This document shows, piece by piece, positions 1 through 10,429 of a DNA stretch of 64,000 bases. Source of the DNA: Lebetimonas sp. JH292 (GTDB taxonomy: Bacteria > Campylobacterota > Campylobacteria > Campylobacterales > Nautiliaceae); NCBI RefSeq assembly GCF_000523275.1, contig NZ_ATHQ01000001.1, positions 1,185,289 through 1,249,288 on the forward strand, given 5' to 3'. The translations under genes and the position numbers were made by a program. Within the stretch, counting starts at the first letter, position 1; every line of letters starts with the position of its first letter. The notes beneath the pieces were generated by a model. The model saw nothing but the letters and a program-made list of their open reading frames with translations. It searched no databases and was not told the origin of the DNA.

Positions 1-648
1 TTTGTTGCTGATGCCGTTATGGAAGCGGCTGACGCAGGAATTGAACTTGCTGTTATTATTACTGAAGGTGCTCCTGTAAAAGACATGATGATGGCTAAAC
101 ATTATGCTCTTAAGAAAGGCATGAAAACAATAGGGCCAAACTGTCCTGGAATTGTGACTGCGGAAGAATGTAAAATAGGTATTATGCCAGCAAGTATTTT
201 CAAAAAAGGAAATGTAGGACTTATTTCCAAATCAGGTACTCTAACTTATGAAGCAAGTAATCAGGTTGTAAAAGCCGGATTTGGAATAACTACCGCCATT
301 GGTATCGGGGGAGACCCTATTATCGGGCTTAGTTATAAAGAACTTTTACCGATGTTTGAAGAAGACCCTGAAACTGAAGCTATTGTAATGATTGGCGAGA
401 TTGGAGGGGATTTGGAAATTCAGTCGGCAAAACTTATTAAAGAAAAAATTACAAAACCTGTAGTTGCATTTATCGCCGGACAAACGGCTCCTAAGGGAAA
501 AAGAATGGGGCACGCCGGTGCAATTATCAGCGGAAGTAAAGGAACTGCGGCAGAAAAAATGGCTGCGCTTAAAGAAGCCGGAGCTTATGTGGTTGAATCT
601 CCTGCTGATATCGGTGTTACCGTAGCTAAAGCTTTAAAAAATAAATAA
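1..648 (+). CDS. sucD: Succinyl-CoA ligase (ADP-forming) alpha subunit, 5'-truncated by window edge
   Basis: The reading frame is open from base 1, so the gene starts outside the window; about 215 C-terminal residues are present of a family length near 290. The protein makes succinyl-CoA from succinate, CoA and ATP with the beta subunit SucC in the cytoplasm. The motif GHAGAIISG, carrying the phosphohistidine, and the glycine-rich region before it are visible. In an organism with OOR (7.6-10.4 kb) and a fumarate reductase (57-61 kb), the enzyme would work in the reductive TCA direction. The missing upstream gene is probably sucC. The call is secure from motif and length. Confidence 0.95.
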
Positions 649-735: not shown

Positions 736-1251
736 TTAATTTTTAGATTCTGTTTCTATTTTTTCTAAAAATTCAATCAGTCCTTTAATGATATCTTTTG
801 GCGTTGGAGGGCATCCGGGGATATGATAATCCACTTTTAAATCAATTCCTTTTATAGCGTATGTTTTTTCAAAAATTCCCAAATCTTTTGTACAGTCTCC
901 CAGGGTTATTACCCATTTTGGATTTGGCACCTGATTATAAGCATCCCATACATGATGATACATATTCATAGTCATTACACCACTTACAAATAGAACATCC
1001 GCATGTCTCGGGCTTGCAACAAAATGGATTCCAAGTCTTTCAAGGTCGTAATAAGGATTGCTTAAGGCGTTGCATTCGGTTTCGCATGCATTGCAGCTTC
1101 CGCTGTCAACCATTCTTATTCCCAGGCTTCCTGCAAACAGTTTTTTTATTTTATCTTTCAAATTTTTCCTGAGGGTTTCTAATTCTTTGTCTATTTCGAT
1201 ATTTTCTGTGACTATACCTCTTTTAAATCTCTCTTTCCAAAACCTTAGCAT
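736..1251 (-). CDS. NuoB/HyfI-like iron-sulfur small subunit of the membrane complex
   Basis: This is the 171-residue small subunit of a complex-I / group-4 hydrogenase-like complex. Cysteines C53, C56, C60, C120 (GDC) and C147 (GCPPTP) are candidate ligands of the proximal [4Fe-4S] cluster (N2 in complex I). It is shorter than E. coli HyfI/HycG. It is the last gene of a six-gene minus-strand operon, 22 bp after the large-subunit gene. Retained cysteines mean that electrons can reach the interface with the large subunit, even though that partner has no Ni site. HyfI-like is certain as a family; the physiological reaction is unknown. Confidence 0.88.
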   Translation of the reverse strand: MLRFWKERFKRGIVTENIEIDKELETLRKNLKDKIKKLFAGSLGIRMVDSGSCNACETECNALSNPYYDLERLGIHFVASPRHADVLFVSGVMTMNMYHHVWDAYNQVPNPKWVITLGDCTKDLGIFEKTYAIKGIDLKVDYHIPGCPPTPKDIIKGLIEFLEKIETESKN

Positions 1252-1273
1252 TCATTTTTCATAATTAATTAAA

Positions 1274-2641
1274 TCAAAGGTCATTTCCAGCATAGCTTAA
1301 ATCGAAACTTTTATTAATAAGCGGAAAATCTGCAATAATATCTTTATAAATACAGGTATGAAAAGCCTGCCAGTTTATATGAGACGGATCTCTTACATAA
1401 AATCTGTCTATTAAACCGTTTTTAATATTTATATACATAAAAAGCTCGCCTATGCTGCTTTCTGTAAATGAGTAATATTCACCGTCTTTAAAATAATTAA
1501 ATTCTATTTTTTTATTTTCATTGTTTATTTTACAGTTTCTTATTATTTCAATTGAATTTTTAATTTCTTTAATTCTTTGTAAAAACCTGTCACTGACTTC
1601 ACCTTTTTTGCCAAGCTGAATTTCAAAGCCGTGTAATTTGTACCATTCGTTATCTCTTCTATCTATTTTAATTCCGCTGCTTCTTGCCCCAACCCCTACA
1701 ACACCGTATTTTACGGCTTTTTCTTTAGTTAAGGTTCCTGTGGTGTCAAATCTGTCCCAAAGAGAAGGAATGTCAATTATCCAGTTTTCAAAGAAGTTCA
1801 TTTTTTCTTCTAAATAATTTAAAAATTCAAATACAGGTTTAAAATCATAATTCATCTCTTCATTTATTGCACCAAATCCGAATCTGTGACCTGTAACTTT
1901 TGCCAAAACTCTTCTTGCGTCTTCTGCTAATTGGCTCATAAACGCTAAAGCCGGAGAAAAACCTGTATCGTTTGGAATAAAACCCAAATCGTTTAAATGA
2001 TTGATTATTCTTTCCATTTCTAATAAAATAGCCGTTTTTCTTTTATAAGTTTCGCTTTGTTCAATTTCAGACGCCTGATGTAAAATATCAAAAAAACAGA
2101 TTTGATAAGCTATTGATTCATTACCGCTTATTCTTTCAACTATTTTTTTTATTTCAAGAGGTGTTTTGTTTTCACACATTTTTTCAATTGCCCTGTATTT
2201 ATAAAAATGTCTTACTTCAATGTGCAGCATATCCTCACCTGCCTGTGAAAACTGAAAATGACCCGGTTCTATAATTCCTGCGTGAATAGGACCGACAGGT
2301 ACATAAAATACGCCTTCACCTTTTACCTCTTCGTATTGATAAGGTTCAAATTCACTGAATTCTATATTTTTTTGTGTAAAATTTTTTCTCATAGGATATA
2401 TATTTTTTGGAAATTTTTCGTGTTTGATAAGAGGCCTTTCATCAAAACTGTCTTCAAAATTTATTCCAAATTCATCTTTTATTTTTCTTTCCATCCATAT
2501 TGCTGCCGGATATATGTCTGTAATGGTTTTTACAGACGGGTTCTTTTTATCAATCTGTGTTTTTTTTATTTCCTGCTCAAAAACATCAATAATTTCAAAA
2601 TTATCTTTATTTTCCCTGGCAAATCTTGCTATCAGTCTCAT
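1274..2641 (-). CDS. NuoCD/HyfG-like large subunit lacking all [NiFe] ligands
   Basis: The 455-residue protein has an N-terminal NuoC-like part (about 1-110) fused to a NuoD / hydrogenase large-subunit domain, seen in the block with YVPVGPIHAGIIEPGHF (about 113-129). In real [NiFe] enzymes the L1 motif is RxCGxC; here residues 170-175 read R-I-S-G-N-E. The C-terminal L2 motif DPCxxC reads D-P-S-H-I-N (418-423). All four Ni-binding cysteines are therefore absent. This is the pattern of complex I NuoD and of energy-converting-hydrogenase-related (Ehr) complexes, so it is not expected to activate H2. Its start overlaps the stop of the previous operon gene. Confidence 0.88.
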   Translation of the reverse strand: MRLIARFARENKDNFEIIDVFEQEIKKTQIDKKNPSVKTITDIYPAAIWMERKIKDEFGINFEDSFDERPLIKHEKFPKNIYPMRKNFTQKNIEFSEFEPYQYEEVKGEGVFYVPVGPIHAGIIEPGHFQFSQAGEDMLHIEVRHFYKYRAIEKMCENKTPLEIKKIVERISGNESIAYQICFFDILHQASEIEQSETYKRKTAILLEMERIINHLNDLGFIPNDTGFSPALAFMSQLAEDARRVLAKVTGHRFGFGAINEEMNYDFKPVFEFLNYLEEKMNFFENWIIDIPSLWDRFDTTGTLTKEKAVKYGVVGVGARSSGIKIDRRDNEWYKLHGFEIQLGKKGEVSDRFLQRIKEIKNSIEIIRNCKINNENKKIEFNYFKDGEYYSFTESSIGELFMYINIKNGLIDRFYVRDPSHINWQAFHTCIYKDIIADFPLINKSFDLSYAGNDL

Positions 2642-4011
2642 TTTACAATTCCTTCAAGGTAATTAAATGTGTTTGGTAAAATTAAAACAGATAAAGCGAT
2701 TATAAACCATATAAGCATTAAATATTCGCTTTTTTTAACATCTCCTTTTTTACCATAGCTGTATACTCCTTCTTGAAATATATTAACAAATTTGTAAAAA
2801 ATAACACTTAAAAACACTAAAATTAGGAAAATGGTAAATATCATTACTCCAAAATATTCGGAATTTTTTGCCAAATCAATCATTGATTTAAATCCGAAAA
2901 TTTCGCTGAAAAACATAGGGCTTGGAGGTAGGGAAACAATTCCAAGCAGTAAAGCAGAAATTAATATTTTCCCCATAACAGGAATATTCAAGCTGCCTTT
3001 AAATCTGAATTTTCCGTTTTGCTCTATTACAGAGCCGCTTAAAAACAGAGCAGGTTTAAAAAAGGCATGAGCTGCAAAATGAAGAAGTGCCGCAAAATAT
3101 CCTCCGCTGACCCAAAATATTGATATTAGAGTCATATGTTCTATACCGGAAAGAGAAAACAGCCTTATGTAATCTTTGCTTCTGTAAATTAAAAAACTTA
3201 CTATAAAAAGAGTAAAAAGGGCATAAATGTATGTAAAAGCGATTAAATGGGAATAATTAACTTCCATCGCAATTTTAGAAAATCTGAAAAATCCTAAAAT
3301 AATGGCACTTTCAAGTATTCCGCTGAACAATGCCCCTACCGGATAAATGGATTGTCTTTCAATATCAGCAAGCCATAAATTCATAGGGAAAAAACCCATT
3401 TTAATAAACATTCCGGTTGCCACAATTGCAAAACCGAGTTCAAAAAGAAACGGTTTAAGGCTTTTGGTGTGTGCTTCAAGAATATAAAAGTTCATAGCGT
3501 TTTCACCTAAATTTGCTTTTCCGGATGCATATATCAAAATAATTCCGAATAATATTAAAGCAATGGCGATTGCACCTACAATCAAATATTTCCAGGCTTC
3601 ATTATGTGCTTCTTTTGAAGGTATGATTTTTATCATATAAACAGTTGAAAGAGTGGCAAACTCAAGTCCTATCCAAAAAAGTCCCATATTGTTTGCTAAA
3701 ATTGAAATAATTACCCCAAGCCAGAATATTCCGTAAAATCTGTAAAATTTTTTATATTCATCTTCACTGAGATTTATTCTCTCTTTTAATGAAATGGCAC
3801 CTATGCTTATTCCTATAGAGACTATTGATGAAACTAAAATTACAAAAGCGTTTAAATTATCCACAAAAAACAGGGTGTTTCTAAAATGATTATTGAAAAT
3901 ATAAACTGCAGGAAATATAATACTTAAAGCTATCAGACTCATAGCAATTCTGTTTATTTTGAAAAAACTTAAAATAAAGATTGCTATCGGCGGTAAAAAT
4001 ATAAATTCCAT
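2638..4011 (-). CDS. HyfF/NuoN-like antiporter membrane subunit
   Basis: The 457-residue, very hydrophobic protein has about 14 membrane spans of the Mrp-antiporter-like family (NuoL/M/N, HyfB/D/F). Conserved family features include the charged residue in GLEFATLSTVYMIK and a lysine/histidine-rich helix around residues 300-330. It should translocate protons or Na+ across the inner membrane within the complex. It overlaps the large-subunit gene by 4 bp and abuts the HyfE-like gene by one base, so the operon is tightly coupled. HyfF fits best by gene order and length. Confidence 0.85.
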   Translation of the reverse strand: MEFIFLPPIAIFILSFFKINRIAMSLIALSIIFPAVYIFNNHFRNTLFFVDNLNAFVILVSSIVSIGISIGAISLKERINLSEDEYKKFYRFYGIFWLGVIISILANNMGLFWIGLEFATLSTVYMIKIIPSKEAHNEAWKYLIVGAIAIALILFGIILIYASGKANLGENAMNFYILEAHTKSLKPFLFELGFAIVATGMFIKMGFFPMNLWLADIERQSIYPVGALFSGILESAIILGFFRFSKIAMEVNYSHLIAFTYIYALFTLFIVSFLIYRSKDYIRLFSLSGIEHMTLISIFWVSGGYFAALLHFAAHAFFKPALFLSGSVIEQNGKFRFKGSLNIPVMGKILISALLLGIVSLPPSPMFFSEIFGFKSMIDLAKNSEYFGVMIFTIFLILVFLSVIFYKFVNIFQEGVYSYGKKGDVKKSEYLMLIWFIIALSVLILPNTFNYLEGIVK

Positions 4012-4599
4012 TTATTCTCCTTGATATTTCAAAAGTAAATTTATAATAATAATAAACATTAATAAATCAACAAAAATACCAAGTTCAACAAGCATTGGCA
4101 TTCCTTCGGTGGCTGAAACCCCTAAAAGAAACAGGGCGTTTTCTACATTTAAAAATCCTATTATTTTTGCTGCGATATTTTTATGTTCTATAATTAAAAG
4201 TGTTGCAATAAAAAGAGATGCTATTGATATTGCTATATAATTTTTATGTATTTCAAAATTATTTATAACAGGTGTAATTAAATAATATGTAAAAACCAAA
4301 AGAAGCGGAATAATAATTATTTGATAATAAATAGGAATTTTTGGATAAATTTTTCTAGGAATGGAAAATTTTTGGGTAAGATATTTCATTATTATTGGAA
4401 TGAAAAGCGATTTAATTAAAATAGTAAGAGTCCCTGTAATCAAAAGGGCTTTGTCATTTATTTCCAAACCTATATTTAATGCAATAAGTCCCAGGAATAA
4501 AGAATTTAAACCATACCATAAAAACAGTGTATAAAGCCTTGTAGTAATAGCTTCTATAATTAAAACAGCTATAAAAAAACCTATTAAAACGTTTGTCAT
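4012..4599 (-). CDS. HyfE/NuoK-like membrane subunit
   Basis: The 195-residue protein has about six hydrophobic spans and the ending GIFVDLLMFIIIINLLLKY that is typical of HyfE. HyfE is an Mnh/NuoK-related subunit bridging the antiporter modules of group-4 complexes. It lies between the HyfC-like and HyfF-like genes, as in hyf operons. Identity rests on position and hydropathy plus the C-terminal motif. Confidence 0.8.
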   Translation of the reverse strand: MTNVLIGFFIAVLIIEAITTRLYTLFLWYGLNSLFLGLIALNIGLEINDKALLITGTLTILIKSLFIPIIMKYLTQKFSIPRKIYPKIPIYYQIIIIPLLLVFTYYLITPVINNFEIHKNYIAISIASLFIATLLIIEHKNIAAKIIGFLNVENALFLLGVSATEGMPMLVELGIFVDLLMFIIIINLLLKYQGE

Positions 4600-4600
4600 T

Positions 4601-5521
4601 TTATGCTCCTAAAATATAATAAGTTGTTAAAGACAAAAATCCGAAAATTATGGCTACCGCAAGTAAATTAGGGACTTTAAAAAGCCTTAGTTTTGCTGTG
4701 TTTACTTCAACTAAAGCCACCATTATGACAATTAACAAAAGTTTTATAATAAAAATACCGAGAGCCAAACACCAGCATAAACTGCTTCCAAAAGGCATAA
4801 AAAGTGTTGCAAAAAGCGAGGCAAAAATTCCGAATTTTAAACTTCCCGCGAGTTCTATTAAAGCCAAATTAGCCCCGCTTGCATCAAGTACCATGGCTTC
4901 GTGAACCATTGTAAGCTCAAGATGTGTTTCAGGATTGTCAACCGGAATTCTGCCGTTTTCAGCTATTAACAAGATAAAAAAACTTATTGCGGAAAGTATA
5001 AAGCTGGCACTGTAAATAATAGGAAAATGATTTGAAAGAGATACAGCCGCTTTTGAAATTGAAATATTTCCCGCCATTAAAGAAACAGCAAAAATTGTAA
5101 GAATCATTGCAGGTTCAACCATAGCTGAAATAAAAGCCTCCCTGCTTGAGCCAATTCCTCCAAAACTGCTTGCACTATCAAGTCCTAAAAGCATAAGAAA
5201 GAATGTAGATAAACTCATAAGCCCTGTGATTGTAAATGCGTCCATAAATGAAATATAAAAACTTTTGTTATAAATAGGGGGCAGTAAAAACAAAACAATA
5301 ATCAAAGGGGAAATTATTAAAAAAGGCGCCGTTTTTGAAATAAGGCTTGTTTCTTTTGAATATATTACCTCTTTTTTAAAAAGTTTGGCTATATCAATAT
5401 AAGGTTGAAAAGGTGAAAGGGGCTTTTTAAACAAAAGAAACATTTTTATTGATTTAATCATACCAGTTAAAAAAGGGGAAATTAATGCTATAAAAATTAT
5501 ACTCAAAAAATAATCAATCAT
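4601..5521 (-). CDS. HyfC/NuoH-like membrane anchor subunit
   Basis: The 306-residue protein has eight or so membrane spans. It carries the NuoH/HycD hallmarks KPLSPFQPYIDIAKLFKKE near the N-terminus, GIGSSREAFISAMVEP in the middle and RIPVDNPETHLELTMVHEAM later. These loops line the quinone/charge-transfer cavity in complex I and connect the soluble arm to the antiporters. Its ATG overlaps the end of the HyfB-like gene. The family call is strong. Confidence 0.88.
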   Translation of the reverse strand: MIDYFLSIIFIALISPFLTGMIKSIKMFLLFKKPLSPFQPYIDIAKLFKKEVIYSKETSLISKTAPFLIISPLIIVLFLLPPIYNKSFYISFMDAFTITGLMSLSTFFLMLLGLDSASSFGGIGSSREAFISAMVEPAMILTIFAVSLMAGNISISKAAVSLSNHFPIIYSASFILSAISFFILLIAENGRIPVDNPETHLELTMVHEAMVLDASGANLALIELAGSLKFGIFASLFATLFMPFGSSLCWCLALGIFIIKLLLIVIMVALVEVNTAKLRLFKVPNLLAVAIIFGFLSLTTYYILGA

Positions 5522-7383
5522 TTTTTCTCTCCTAAAAGTAATATTTTGATAAAAATAGCCATAACGGTTATTTCAAGCAATATTTCGCCCCAGGAAACCT
5601 GATGATAAAAAACCCTGTAAGAAAAAAGAACTAAAATCAAAAGATTAAAAATTAAAGCAACATATTTTGTTTTTTCGAAATGCGAAATTTTATATACATA
5701 ATAACTGATAATATTGGCTAATTTTACATTTCCGTCATATAAACTTTTTTCAAACAGAGGTTTTACATGCACTTCATAAAATGAATATGTAAATTTTGTT
5801 TTATGTCCCAAAATAGACTCTTTTACTTTATGTTCTTTCGGTCTATAAAGCCATGTAAAAAATTTTCTGATTGGTCCGGCAAATCCTACTGATGAATACT
5901 GGTTGGTTTTATTGACTTCGTAGCCGCATCCCCAGGTGTGATATGTTCTTGTTTTTATATTTAATGATTTATATATTAAATAAATAACTGCAGTTACAAT
6001 TATTAGGGCAAAAAAGAGTATCAGAGGAGATACGCTTCCACCGTTGGAATTTACACTGTGCATTATCCAGATATCCGGAAAGATTTTATTATAAATATTT
6101 AAAACAGGTGTTGAAATATTTATAAATTTAATAACAAAAGGGGCGAAAAGCATTAAAGAAATTACAACTATACCCATTAAAATCTGTCCTATTTGCATTA
6201 AAATATTTACTTCTTTTGCGTTTTTTGCGTTTTCACTTCTGTAGAGTCCTAAAAATGCAATGCCGAATGCTTTTACAAAACATGCAATTGCAAGACCTCC
6301 GGTAAGGGCAAGGGCAAAAATAGAAAACGGAAAGGCAAGTTTTAAAGCAATGTTGCTCATTCCACTGGAACTTAACATGCTTTGAAATGTCATCCATTCA
6401 CTCAAAAAGCCGTTTGTAGGGGGAAGGGCTGAGATGGAAACGGCGGCGAGTAAAAAACTAAAAGCGGTTATCGGCATATTTTTAATAAGTCCACCGTATT
6501 GTTCAAGATTTTTTGTATGAGTTTCATATAATACGCTTCCCGCACTCATAAAAAGAAGTGATTTAAAACTCATATGGTTAAATGTATGGTAAATTGCCGC
6601 AATAAAAGCAAAAGCACTTAAAATGGGCATATTTAAAGTATTAAATATCATACCTACGCCTATACCTATTAATATTATTCCAATATTTTCTACCGAATGG
6701 TTTGCAAGCAGAGCTTTTATATCATGCTCGCTCAAAGCATATAAAACACCTATAAGTGCACTCAATGCCCCTATTATCAATATAATAATTCCCCATTCTA
6801 TCGGCCATGAAGGAATCATAAATAAAAATTTTAAAAATGCAAAAATTGCAACTTTAAGCATAACTCCGCTCATTAAGGCTGAAACGGGAGAAGGGGCCGC
6901 AGGATGTGCATACGGAAGCCATACATGAAGAGGCACTGCTCCGGCTTTACTTAAAAATCCGATTGACATTAAAATAAATAGAAGAGTTGGATATTTGAAA
7001 TTGGCCATATTTAATTTTAAAAAGCTAAAAGGCATAAATAAATTTTGCGGCGAAACAAGCAGGAAGAACAGTAATATAAACACAAAACCGAAATGTGTCA
7101 TAAAAAAGTAAAATCTCGCGGCTTTTAAATTTTTTTCCTCCGGTTCGGTTAAAATCAGCTGCCAGGAACTCAAACTCATAAGTTCCCAGAAAAATAAAAA
7201 CACAACTATATTATTACTTAATACCACGCCAATCATTGAAATAATAAATGTAAAATAATGCAGTAAAAAATGAAATTTTCTTTCAATATGGTTTAAATAT
7301 CCTGCCATATAAAACAGATTGGGCAACGCACCTAAAAAAATTAAAAATAAAAACAATACAGAAAAAGAATTAAATTCAAACAT
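5518..7383 (-). CDS. HyfB/NuoL-like antiporter subunit, first gene of the complex operon
   Basis: The 621-residue multi-span protein has the NuoL/HyfB core (WELMSLSSWQL, LHVWLPYAHPAAPSPVSALMS, HTFNHMSFKSLLF) and the long HyfB C-terminal part with WGCGYE and a positively charged segment. It would be the distal ion pump of the complex. The start is supported by AAGG about 10 bases upstream; a minus-strand TATAAT lies at 7424-7429. The operon order B-C-E-F-G-I lacks HyfD and the ferredoxin-like subunits HyfA/HyfH, so the electron-input partner must be encoded elsewhere or differ. Confidence 0.88.
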   Translation of the reverse strand: MFEFNSFSVLFLFLIFLGALPNLFYMAGYLNHIERKFHFLLHYFTFIISMIGVVLSNNIVVFLFFWELMSLSSWQLILTEPEEKNLKAARFYFFMTHFGFVFILLFFLLVSPQNLFMPFSFLKLNMANFKYPTLLFILMSIGFLSKAGAVPLHVWLPYAHPAAPSPVSALMSGVMLKVAIFAFLKFLFMIPSWPIEWGIIILIIGALSALIGVLYALSEHDIKALLANHSVENIGIILIGIGVGMIFNTLNMPILSAFAFIAAIYHTFNHMSFKSLLFMSAGSVLYETHTKNLEQYGGLIKNMPITAFSFLLAAVSISALPPTNGFLSEWMTFQSMLSSSGMSNIALKLAFPFSIFALALTGGLAIACFVKAFGIAFLGLYRSENAKNAKEVNILMQIGQILMGIVVISLMLFAPFVIKFINISTPVLNIYNKIFPDIWIMHSVNSNGGSVSPLILFFALIIVTAVIYLIYKSLNIKTRTYHTWGCGYEVNKTNQYSSVGFAGPIRKFFTWLYRPKEHKVKESILGHKTKFTYSFYEVHVKPLFEKSLYDGNVKLANIISYYVYKISHFEKTKYVALIFNLLILVLFSYRVFYHQVSWGEILLEITVMAIFIKILLLGEKK

Positions 7384-7593: not shown

Positions 7594-7893
7594 ATGGCGT
7601 TAAATGTAAATTTTAAATTAAAAGCTCCAGAAAACACACCTGTGTGGGTAGATGAAAATAAATGCAAAAGCTGTGAACTTTGCGTAGATTTTTGTCCTAC
7701 CGGGGTTCTTGAAATGGTCGTTGACCCTCATAATATTTTAGGTCAGATGGTTAAAGTTGCCCATCCAGAATATTGTATAGGATGCAGGGAATGTGAGCTT
7801 GAATGTCCTGATTTTTGTATTTTTGTAGCGGAAAGAGACGAATATAAATTTAAAAAATTAAATGAAGTTAAGAAGTTAAAAGGAGAAGCGTAA
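7594..7893 (+). CDS. oorD: 2-oxoglutarate:ferredoxin oxidoreductase delta subunit
   Basis: This 99-residue 2x[4Fe-4S] ferredoxin-like subunit has CKSCELCVDFCP and CIGCRECELECP. It relays electrons between the TPP/cluster core of OOR and ferredoxin. It heads the operon oorD-A-B-C, the usual Campylobacterota order, and AAAGGAG sits 8 bases before the ATG. In a reductive TCA organism the enzyme carboxylates succinyl-CoA to 2-oxoglutarate, using reduced ferredoxin, in the cytoplasm. Confidence 0.95.
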   Translation: MALNVNFKLKAPENTPVWVDENKCKSCELCVDFCPTGVLEMVVDPHNILGQMVKVAHPEYCIGCRECELECPDFCIFVAERDEYKFKKLNEVKKLKGEA

Positions 7894-9029
7894 TGAGAGA
7901 AGTAGTATCAACAGGAAATAAGCTTGCGGCACTTGCAGCCATTGATGCGGGATGCAGGTTTTTCGGAGGATATCCGATTACACCTTCAAGTGAAATTGCC
8001 CATGAAATGAGCAGACTGTTACCAAAAGTTGGCGGCGTATTTATCCAAATGGAAGATGAAATCGCAGGTATTTCAGTTGCGCTTGGGGCCAGTATGAGCG
8101 GAACCAAGGCTATGACAAATACTTCAGGCCCTGGAATAAGTCTAAAAGCGGAGCAAATAGGACTTGCGTTTATGGGAGAAGTTCCTTTGGTTATCACAAA
8201 TGTAATGAGAGGGGGACCTTCAACCGGGCTTCCTACAAGACCTGCACAACAGGATATTTTACAGGCCCAGGCACCAACTCATGGAGATTATCAGTCAATT
8301 GCACTGTGTCCGGGAAGTTTGGATGAGTGTTACACTGAAACAGTCAGGGCGTTTAATTTAGCTGAAAGATTTATGACGCCTGTATTTGTGTTACTTGATG
8401 AAACACTTGGGCATATGATAGGAAAAGCAGTACTTCCTCCAAAAGATGAAGTTGAAAAAAATATTTTCAATAGACGTGTATATGAAGGTGATCCTGCGAC
8501 ATATGAACCGTATAATGTTCCGGCAGATGAGCCTGCAATTTTAAATCCATTTTTTAAAGGATACAGATATCATATTACTGGGCTTCATCACGGGCCTACA
8601 GGTTTCCCTACAGAAGATGCAAAACTTTCACAGGAATTAATTGACAGATTATTTAATAAAATTTTAGCCCATAAAGACGAAATAGAAAGTTATGAAGAAT
8701 ATATGCTTGATGATGCCGATATTTTAGTTATTGCATATGGAAGTGTGAGCTTGGCGGCAAAAGAAGCAATCAGACAACTTAGGGCTGAGGGTATTAAAGC
8801 GGGATTATTCAGACCAATTACACTTTGGCCGTCTCCGGAAGAAAAAATTGATGAAGTATGTAAAAAATTTGATAAAGTATTGGTGGCTGAAATGAATAAA
8901 GGTCAATATTTTAAAGAAATTCAAAGAGCAAGCGGAAGAAAAGCCGAAACATTTGAAACTTTATTTAAGGCAAACGGAAGAGCAATTAGCCCTGCTGAAT
9001 TTAAAGCAAAAATAAAAGAAATGGTATAA
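7893..9029 (+). CDS. oorA: 2-oxoglutarate:ferredoxin oxidoreductase alpha subunit
   Basis: The 378-residue protein begins with the transketolase-pyrimidine-type region (GYPITPSSEIAHEM) that marks OorA/PorA, followed by the LPTRPAQQD block and a C-terminal transketolase-like domain (IAYGSVSLAAKEAI). It forms the active site with OorB. It overlaps the oorD stop by one base, implying translational coupling. Length and motifs are normal for the family. Confidence 0.96.
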   Translation: MREVVSTGNKLAALAAIDAGCRFFGGYPITPSSEIAHEMSRLLPKVGGVFIQMEDEIAGISVALGASMSGTKAMTNTSGPGISLKAEQIGLAFMGEVPLVITNVMRGGPSTGLPTRPAQQDILQAQAPTHGDYQSIALCPGSLDECYTETVRAFNLAERFMTPVFVLLDETLGHMIGKAVLPPKDEVEKNIFNRRVYEGDPATYEPYNVPADEPAILNPFFKGYRYHITGLHHGPTGFPTEDAKLSQELIDRLFNKILAHKDEIESYEEYMLDDADILVIAYGSVSLAAKEAIRQLRAEGIKAGLFRPITLWPSPEEKIDEVCKKFDKVLVAEMNKGQYFKEIQRASGRKAETFETLFKANGRAISPAEFKAKIKEMV

Positions 9030-9038
9030 GGAGAAACA

Positions 9039-9869
9039 ATGGCGTTTAATTATGATTATTATTTAAGAACGGAAAAAATGCCGACACTTTGGTGTTGGGG
9101 ATGCGGTGACGGTATTATTATGAAAGCTGTTATAAGAGCTATGGCAAAACTCGGATGGGATAAAAACGATGTCTGTGTTGTAAGCGGAATCGGATGCAGC
9201 GGAAGATTTTCAAGCTATATTGACGCAAACACGGTTCATACTACCCATGGAAGAACACTTGCTTATGCAACAGGGGTAAAACTTGCCAATCCTGATAAAC
9301 ATGTTGTTGTTGTAGCGGGTGACGGAGACGGACTTGCCATTGGTGGTAACCACACTATTCACGCATGTAGAAGAAATATAGATTTAAATTTTATTTTAGT
9401 AGATAATTTTATTTATGGGCTTACAAACTCCCAGGTTTCTCCTACAACTCCAAAAGGAGCATGGTCAGTAACTACCCAGTATGGAAATATCGACCCGACT
9501 TTTGATGCTTGTGAATTAGCTAAAGGGGCAGGGGCGACTTTTGTAGCAAGAGAAAGTGTGGCCGAAGCTCAAAAACTTGAAAGAATATTTATAAAAGCTT
9601 TTGGCCATAAAGGGTTTAGTTTTATTGATGTCCATTCAAACTGTCATGTTAATTTCGGTAGAAAGAATAAAATGGCTCAGGCTAAACAGAATATGGACTG
9701 GATTGAAAGCAATTTAGTTCCTAAAGCAAAATGGGATAAATTAAGCGAAGAAGAAAAATATGAATTAAAACAACAGGGTAAAAAACCAAGAGGAATTTTA
9801 TATCAACAGGAGGAACCTGAATACACTGAAGAGTATTATAAATTAATCGATAGAGTAAGGGGTAAATAA
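9039..9869 (+). CDS. oorB: 2-oxoglutarate:ferredoxin oxidoreductase beta subunit
   Basis: The 276-residue TPP-binding subunit shows the cofactor motif GDGDGLAIGGNH and the cluster-ligating CWGCGDG near the N-terminus. It pairs with OorA to bind TPP and a [4Fe-4S] cluster. A GGAG ribosome site lies in the 9-bp gap after oorA. No anomalies are seen. Confidence 0.96.
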   Translation: MAFNYDYYLRTEKMPTLWCWGCGDGIIMKAVIRAMAKLGWDKNDVCVVSGIGCSGRFSSYIDANTVHTTHGRTLAYATGVKLANPDKHVVVVAGDGDGLAIGGNHTIHACRRNIDLNFILVDNFIYGLTNSQVSPTTPKGAWSVTTQYGNIDPTFDACELAKGAGATFVARESVAEAQKLERIFIKAFGHKGFSFIDVHSNCHVNFGRKNKMAQAKQNMDWIESNLVPKAKWDKLSEEEKYELKQQGKKPRGILYQQEEPEYTEEYYKLIDRVRGK

Positions 9870-10429
9870 TGAGAAAACAATTAAGATTTACAGGGGTTGG
9901 AGGACAAGGTGTCCTTCTTGCCGGTGAAATTTTAGCAAGAGCTTATGTCAGGGCTGGTAAATACGGAATTCAGGTAGGTACTTATACTTCTCAGGTAAGG
10001 GGAGGCCCTACAAAAGTTGATATTATCTTAGATGATGAGCCTATTCTTTATCCTTACGCGGTTGACGGTGAAATTGATTTTATGCTTAGCGTTGCAGATA
10101 AATCCTATCAGTTGTTTAAAGAAGGTGTAAAAGAAGGCGGTATAATTGTATATGAACCGAATCTGGTTTATCCGAGTGATGATGACAAAGCGAAATGGAA
10201 AATGTTTGCTATAGATATTATTGATATTGCAAAAGAAAAAGTCGGGAATGTTATTACCCAGTCAGTTGTGGCTCTTGCAATTGCTACAAAAATGAATGAT
10301 ATAGACAAAGATATGGTATATGAAACTATGATTCAAACAGTTCCGCCTAAAGCGGTTGAGATTAACAAAAAAGCATTTGAACTAGGTTTCCAAGCCGCAG
10401 TTGCTGCTTTAGAAAAAGAAAATTCATAA
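9869..10429 (+). CDS. oorC: 2-oxoglutarate:ferredoxin oxidoreductase gamma subunit
   Basis: The 186-residue gamma subunit has the family start FTGVGGQGVLLAGEILARAY and the TYTSQVRGGPTK loop. It completes the four-subunit OOR. Its ATG overlaps the oorB stop (ATGA-type). A strong hairpin terminator follows directly. Confidence 0.96.
   Translation: MRKQLRFTGVGGQGVLLAGEILARAYVRAGKYGIQVGTYTSQVRGGPTKVDIILDDEPILYPYAVDGEIDFMLSVADKSYQLFKEGVKEGGIIVYEPNLVYPSDDDKAKWKMFAIDIIDIAKEKVGNVITQSVVALAIATKMNDIDKDMVYETMIQTVPPKAVEINKKAFELGFQAAVAALEKENS

Follow-up and report, generated by a model that had tools for sequence, protein, structure and literature searches.

A predicted Ehr complex without a Ni-Fe site in Lebetimonas sp. 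JH292 and its Campylobacterota branch with a remodelled pocket

Energy-converting-hydrogenase-related (Ehr) complexes have been described in comammox Nitrospira, ammonia-oxidising archaea, Saganbacteria and the Candidate Phyla Radiation (CPR), where they were named without a function being given (PMC10284858, PMC6349859, PMC10432482, PMC7304191). These complexes consist of group-4-type subunits, including antiporter-like subunits, and have no CxxC pairs. In the literature they are presumed to couple redox chemistry to ion translocation. The group 4 complexes listed in the consulted passages of two Nautilia genome papers are Ech, Hyc and Coo, not Ehr (PMC2628731, PMC10092268). The gene cluster discussed here lies at positions 736-7383 of a 64,000-nucleotide stretch of Lebetimonas sp. 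JH292, a bacterium of hydrothermal-vent type (contig NZ_ATHQ01000001.1, positions 1,185,289 to 1,249,288), which is referred to as the window. Judged by its encoded proteins, this cluster is an Ehr complex and likewise a member of this known and widespread family. What is new is a Campylobacterota branch with a remodelled pocket and an extra cysteine. Unlike the published Ehr complexes, this branch has Ile or Leu at position 397, Glu175 and Asp447 in the large subunit EhrG, Cys60 in the small subunit EhrI, and shorter EhrB and EhrG proteins.

Several other systems are closely related. HycE of the Escherichia coli formate hydrogenlyase (hydrogenase-3; PDB 7z0s and 7z0t) is the nearest solved relative of EhrG in both sequence and fold. 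Formate hydrogenlyase has a [NiFe] centre, HycB, HycF and FdhF, none of which is encoded in the Ehr cluster. The membrane-bound sulfane-sulfur reductase (MBS) of Pyrococcus furiosus (PDB 6u8y) resembles Ehr in that it is derived from group 4, contains no Ni and has no quinone residues. MBS keeps two of the four large-subunit cysteines; its cluster has open coordination, and two more [4Fe-4S] clusters take in electrons from ferredoxin (PMC7684303). In contrast, the CxxC motif of EhrI is gap-free against MbhJ of the membrane-bound hydrogenase (MBH), and EhrG has no Cys at any of the four motif positions. Unlike complex I, EhrI has a CxxC motif and not the tandem Cys for cluster N2, and I124 and G173 of EhrG replace His38 and Tyr87. 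In addition, CxxC-keeping relatives from Bacillota, Acidobacteriota and Myxococcota share the HAG-IIEPGHF loop and the gene set with Ehr but differ in having all four Ni-Fe cysteines and, in most cases, a small subunit to which a ferredoxin domain is fused; these relatives we take to be, probably, HydDB group 4f. The Mycobacterium tuberculosis locus Rv0081-Rv0088 was reportedly described as a predicted formate hydrogenlyase by He and colleagues in 2011 (title cited in PMC6177252). It presumably comprises these six genes too, together with an ArsR regulator.

The Lebetimonas complex has no Ni-Fe site, one four-Cys proximal [4Fe-4S] site and no ferredoxin-like entry subunit, and its two antiporter-type modules and the charge path in EhrC appear intact at the residue level. 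We give an even chance to the most likely reading, namely that it is a compact, membrane-bound, redox-driven ion pump of the complex-I superfamily, which works without hydrogen chemistry and in which electrons enter EhrI directly.

Six open reading frames on the minus strand fill positions 736-7383. Neighbouring frames overlap by 4 bases or are at most 22 bases apart, and all are packed as one operon. A gene order resembling HyfB-C-E-F-G-I had been proposed in an earlier, sequence-only reading of this DNA, and the layout of the frames and the Pfam and NCBIfam matches bear this out: B and F are antiporter-type, C is NuoH/HyfC-like, E is HyfE-like, G combines NuoC and NuoD, and I is NuoB-like. 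All matches to named complex I or hydrogenase-4 proteins are below the curated cut-offs of these profiles. The genes are:

736..1251, minus strand: EhrI, NuoB/HycG-type small subunit of 171 aa, with one proximal [4Fe-4S] cluster expected and no ferredoxin domain (Pfam Oxidored_q6; best PDB relatives MbhJ and HycG; model with mean pLDDT 86, matched by Foldseek to NuoB/HycG/MbhJ)
1274..2641, minus strand: EhrG, NuoC+NuoD/HycE-type large subunit of 455 aa without Ni-Fe ligands (Pfam 30kDa and 49kDa domains; HycE is the best PDB sequence match; model with pLDDT 87.7, top fold HycE at TM 0.92)
2638..4011, minus strand: EhrF, HyfF-type antiporter-like subunit of 457 aa (Proton_antipo_M and hydrogenase 4 subunit F models)
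4012..4599, minus strand: EhrE, HyfE-type membrane subunit of 195 aa (weak match to PRK11492, hydrogenase 4 membrane subunit, 48.7 bits, below cut-off)
4601..5521, minus strand: EhrC, NuoH/HyfC-type membrane anchor of 306 aa with E-channel carboxylates (Pfam NADHdh)
5518..7383, minus strand: EhrB, HyfB-type antiporter-like subunit of 621 aa (PRK06521, hydrogenase 4 subunit B, 538 bits, below cut-off)

By length comparison, EhrB is about 50 aa shorter in Campylobacterota than in other phyla, and EhrG is also shorter in this branch than in other Ehr. The expectation that such genes would be mis-annotated is confirmed by related public records, which are labelled 'hydrogenase 4 subunit B/F', 'formate hydrogenlyase' or 'NADH-quinone oxidoreductase subunit C'.

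Four features of EhrG belong to the former Ni-Fe pocket:

2117..2128, minus strand: remnant of the first ligand motif (L1), S172-G-N-E175, replacing CxxC (alignment and orthologue comparison)
1286..1297, minus strand: remnant of the second ligand motif (L2), S449-Y-A-G452, replacing CxxC (alignment; corrected position)
2258..2284, minus strand: catalytic loop H120-A-G-I-I-E-P-G-H128, in which E125 corresponds to MbhL E21 and I124 stands where complex I has H38
1451..1453, minus strand: I397, where HycE has the canopy arginine R478; all 45 Campylobacterota sequences have Ile or Leu here

L1 reads R-I-S-G-N-E at 170-175, as had been claimed, with S172 and E175 standing where HycE has both Cys. 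The second site had been placed at D418-P-S-H-I-N423, a placement rejected by the alignment to HycE, in which this segment is matched with R-A-A-T-Y-A-N-W. The L2 motif of HycE (D-P-C-Y-S-C) aligns instead to D447-L-S449-Y-A-G452, three residues ahead of the stop. Correcting the site strengthens the claim of ligand loss, since both pairs are now seen to be lost invariantly: they are absent in all 32 close orthologues, in which S172, G173, S449, Y450, A451 and G452 are unvarying and position 175 is Asp in one. This pattern is far beyond chance. Cysteine pairs elsewhere in the large subunit would have offered alternative ligands, and no cysteine column is conserved throughout the 32 orthologues; C156 and C182 vary, and the nearest column, position 446, is Cys in 19 of them and Phe in the window. 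Many nickel hydrogenases carry a C-terminal extension that is removed by maturation proteases. With only three residues after L2, EhrG has no tail for such a protease. Of the remaining pocket residues, H120, E125, H128, E394, S449 and G452 are near-invariant, and I124 and G173, at the complex I quinone-headgroup positions, are invariant among the orthologues. E125 keeps the glutamate of MbhL E21, which serves in proton reduction in MBH (PMC7684303, also for H38 and Y87 of complex I). A group 4 [NiFe] hydrogenase would have two CxxC pairs and a canopy Arg; EhrG has neither pair, and I397 in place of that Arg (numbering of HycE R478: PMC9474812).

EhrI retains its cluster site, with the following positions:

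1084..1095, minus strand: C53-N-A-C56, first two proximal-cluster ligands (alignment)
1072..1074, minus strand: C60, extra invariant cysteine specific to Campylobacterota (alignment and model)
892..894, minus strand: C120, proximal-cluster ligand (alignment)
811..813, minus strand: C147, proximal-cluster ligand (alignment)

All five cysteines had previously been counted as cluster cysteines. This holds for C53, C56, C120 and C147, which align with the four proximal-cluster ligands of MbhJ and HycG with a gap-free CxxC loop, but not for C60, which is an extra, clade-specific Cys. In the EhrI model, C60 lies on the same helix as C56, one helical turn further. Within the Campylobacterota clade 44/44 EhrI sequences have it, and outside this clade none does; H100 of EhrI is likewise clade-specific.

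A Ni-Fe centre in Ehr would need the Hyp machinery in its host, and a survey of HypD therefore served as an independent check. The presence/absence scans covered chosen families. Among 33 Ehr-positive Campylobacterota genomes, HypD is absent in six that are 99-100% complete (G110, G399, G235, G233, G319 and G251), and the same six have no match to group 1-3 [NiFe] hydrogenases that exceeds the family cut-off. Two more Ehr-positive genomes have no HypD match, namely a fragmented draft that has a hydrogenase (G003) and a 70% complete genome (G010). The window's own genome (1.64 Mb) has HypD and other hydrogenases. It encodes four other complexes of the superfamily, named by gene content: a Nuo complex without EFG, which has 11 subunits (L010), a formate-hydrogenlyase-like Hyc, Coo and Ech. 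Nautiliaceae have no COX1-type oxidases, nearly all other Ehr-positive hosts do have them, and no oxygen pattern is seen.

The family was placed in a tree of 128 large subunits, with support from the Shimodaira-Hasegawa-like approximate likelihood ratio test (SH-aLRT) only and with the Cys columns left in. The 45 Campylobacterota sequences form one clade (support 100) on a very long stem of 1.89 changes per site, and this clade sits among 110 cysteine-less rows (SH-aLRT 96), which also include the Nitrospira, Saganbacteria, CPR and Thaumarchaeota sequences. The group of 12 cysteine-keeping rows, with one half-lost member from a Desulfosporosinus metagenome-assembled genome (L157, 4376-5830, plus strand), falls outside the cysteine-less group. 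The Desulfosporosinus sequence has S..C in both L1 and L2 and a small subunit with a ferredoxin domain, and is a possible intermediate between hydrogenase and Ehr. Within the cysteine-less group, the Campylobacterota differ at the pocket: the canopy position, Ile or Leu throughout this clade, is Arg in 64/65 other sequences; position 175 is Glu in 44/45 versus mostly Thr or Ser; and position 447 is Asp in 45/45 versus mostly Asn. A scan of about 85,000 species genomes gave at least 574 confirmed relatives across bacteria and archaea, and 121 plasmid records match too, part of them perhaps of other group 4 types. The cassette of six genes recurs on both chromosomes and plasmids, in most cases by itself.

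A ferredoxin-type subunit like HyfA/HyfH (HycB/HycF) is absent from the cluster and from all Ehr clusters inspected, and a HyfD-like gene is found neither here nor in the Campylobacterota clusters inspected, in agreement with what had been read from the window. NuoI-like matches in the genome are mostly within the other four complexes; OorD and a few others are elsewhere, and none is inside the Ehr cluster. Electrons would therefore have to come straight from a soluble carrier to EhrI; otherwise no net electron flow takes place. The small subunit has an N-terminal ferredoxin-like domain in 10/12 CxxC-keeping relatives versus 10/95 cysteine-less Ehr, and in none of the Campylobacterota clade (Fisher p 3e-7, to be read as a pattern and not as a test on independent events, as the sequences are related). 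On the membrane side, charged residues, assigned to the pump helices by homology, are 86-100% conserved over about 100 sequences for each subunit. These are E67, K146, K223 and K274 of EhrB and E117, K204, R243 and K319 of EhrF, which all match the conserved Glu and Lys of antiporter subunits, and the carboxylates E128, E136, E188, D195, E202 and E208 of EhrC. Tree position, ligand loss, pump residues, the absence of a NuoI-type subunit and HypD-less hosts all agree with the sequence-only reading of an Ehr-type, [NiFe]-free and putatively ion-translocating group-4-like complex.

In the ion-pump reading, a soluble low-potential carrier, most likely ferredoxin, would dock on the face of EhrI that is normally covered by the NuoI/HycF subunit. 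The electron would travel via the single cluster to a small substrate, held in what was once the Ni-Fe/quinone pocket, between EhrG and EhrI. The loops of this pocket would drive, or be driven by, cation movement via EhrC, EhrF and EhrB. The reverse mode, in which an ion gradient drives ferredoxin reduction, may also occur and would suit hosts that use the reductive tricarboxylic acid (rTCA) cycle. Because the Campylobacterota pocket is retuned, with Arg lost, Glu175 and Asp447 present and Cys60 added, this branch probably acts on another substrate than the other Ehr complexes do. Several points weigh against the ion-pump reading. Ehr has no conserved partner gene, and a single-cluster complex has no proven electron route. 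Loop 117-127 of EhrG is of low confidence in the predicted structure. In addition, the pump residues look intact in Ehr, but conserved carboxylates and lysines do not prove pumping.

A tentative extension is that the former Ni-Fe site has become a new catalytic centre, with EhrI Cys60 and EhrG Glu175 and Asp447 by the proximal cluster and no canopy Arg. It may then perform a reaction that is novel among complex-I relatives and coupled to ion pumping.

The strongest rival, which we regard as unlikely, is a redox-gated antiporter without net electron transfer, in which the single cluster, with C60, would sense redox state and gate a cation/proton antiporter formed by EhrB, EhrC and EhrF. Such a device would match the loss of the catalytic metal together with that of the Fe-S entry domain in most Ehr beside intact pump residues, the lack of a dedicated redox partner in any neighbourhood, and the occurrence of Ehr on many plasmids, including those of aerobes. 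The near-invariance of the six pocket residues is nevertheless beyond what gating would obviously require.

An MBS-like reductase, in which the C60-aided cluster would reduce sulfane-sulfur compounds (polysulfide) with ferredoxin electrons, is improbable. Sulfur-metabolising vent Campylobacterota are among the hosts, the additional invariant thiol is one turn away from a cluster ligand, and, as in MBS, there are no quinone residues. However, MBS activity needs an open iron site from a cysteine loop that is three residues shorter (PMC7684303), whereas the EhrI loop is full-length, MBH-type and has all four ligands. The two leftover cysteines of MbsL are also missing in EhrG, and other Ehr complexes occur in soil and plant aerobes and do not have C60. 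Equally improbable is a short, complex I-like ferredoxin:menaquinone oxidoreductase. The complex-I architecture with its intact E-channel and the quinone-linked respiration of Nautilia (PMC2628731) fit this idea, but the headgroup residues H38 and Y87 are invariantly replaced, tandem cysteines are absent and the genome already has the 11-subunit Nuo.

It has a still lower standing, in our estimate, that the complex supplies reduced ferredoxin to the adjacent 2-oxoglutarate:ferredoxin oxidoreductase, which would explain its position in an rTCA locus. In the window and in a sister species, sucD and oorDABC flank the cassette, with icd-mdh-fumAB-sucCD upstream of it (some gene names by sequence inspection). 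The sucD-Ehr-oorD placement is common to the sister species only, and in 12/12 other genomes tested sucCD and oorD are adjacent without a cassette between them. The placement, a genus-specific insertion, therefore speaks only weakly for a function in CO2 fixation, and the link by position was rejected as general evidence. ATP-citrate lyase is present in 31/33 Ehr-positive Campylobacterota genomes, but also in 38/46 of the others (Fisher p 0.18, not significant), and elsewhere Ehr sits in unrelated places. Finally, it is highly improbable that the complex is still a hydrogenase whose ligands lie elsewhere, or that it is a decayed remnant: although the overall fold is predicted to be HycE-like, no cysteine column runs throughout EhrG, the canopy Arg is lost and six Ehr-positive genomes have no HypD, while decay is ruled out by reading frames that are intact and by strong conservation in many families.

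The flanks of the cassette in the window (19-648 and 7594-10429) show the interruption of an otherwise conserved sucCD-oorDABC arrangement. A check for co-occurring genes across Nautiliales did not identify a partner. Neighbours elsewhere are unrelated; no family recurs beside Ehr across Campylobacterota, and among 80 wider loci there is none that does so strongly. Only subsets of the loci share SulP transporters, ArsR regulators or ATP synthase genes. In five loci, several of them from CPR (L129, L137, L140, L154 and L176), the Ehr genes come directly after those for the beta and epsilon subunits of an F-type ATP synthase, an arrangement that fits a chemiosmotic role. SulP-type anion transporter genes adjoin Ehr in three loci from unrelated phyla (L156, L161 and L170; Methylococcales, Terriglobia), and L107 and L145 fall in the same protein cluster as these genes. 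ArsR-type regulator genes adjoin Ehr in L153, L172, L179 and L188, and precede Ehr in several loci; these we take to recall Rv0081 of M. tuberculosis.

Variation in the cassette itself has also been observed. A tandem ehrB pair in three Campylobacterota loci (L082, L084 and L107) gives three antiporter-like subunits. One genome (G343) has two different Ehr clusters side by side (L085), with 60% and 34% identity to the EhrG of the window, and a third, more divergent cluster in L101. In L091 (G076), several unrelated genes part ehrI from ehrG. A small open reading frame (102-127 aa) lies between ehrF and ehrG in L107, L108, L083 and similar loci, and the copy in L108 is DUF167-like.

Ehr complexes are present in hundreds of bacterial and archaeal genomes and have no known reaction. 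The residues C60, E175, I397 and D447 set the Campylobacterota branch apart and can be mutated. As some Ehr hosts live without HypD and without group 1-3 [NiFe] hydrogenases, hydrogen chemistry can be excluded genetically. The loss of the metal site accompanies the loss of the electron-entry domain, and any model must account for this link. A possible path from hydrogenase to non-hydrogenase emerges from the half-lost sequence of Desulfosporosinus and from the sister clade that keeps CxxC, and vent autotrophs with Ehr may hold an overlooked energy-coupling site.

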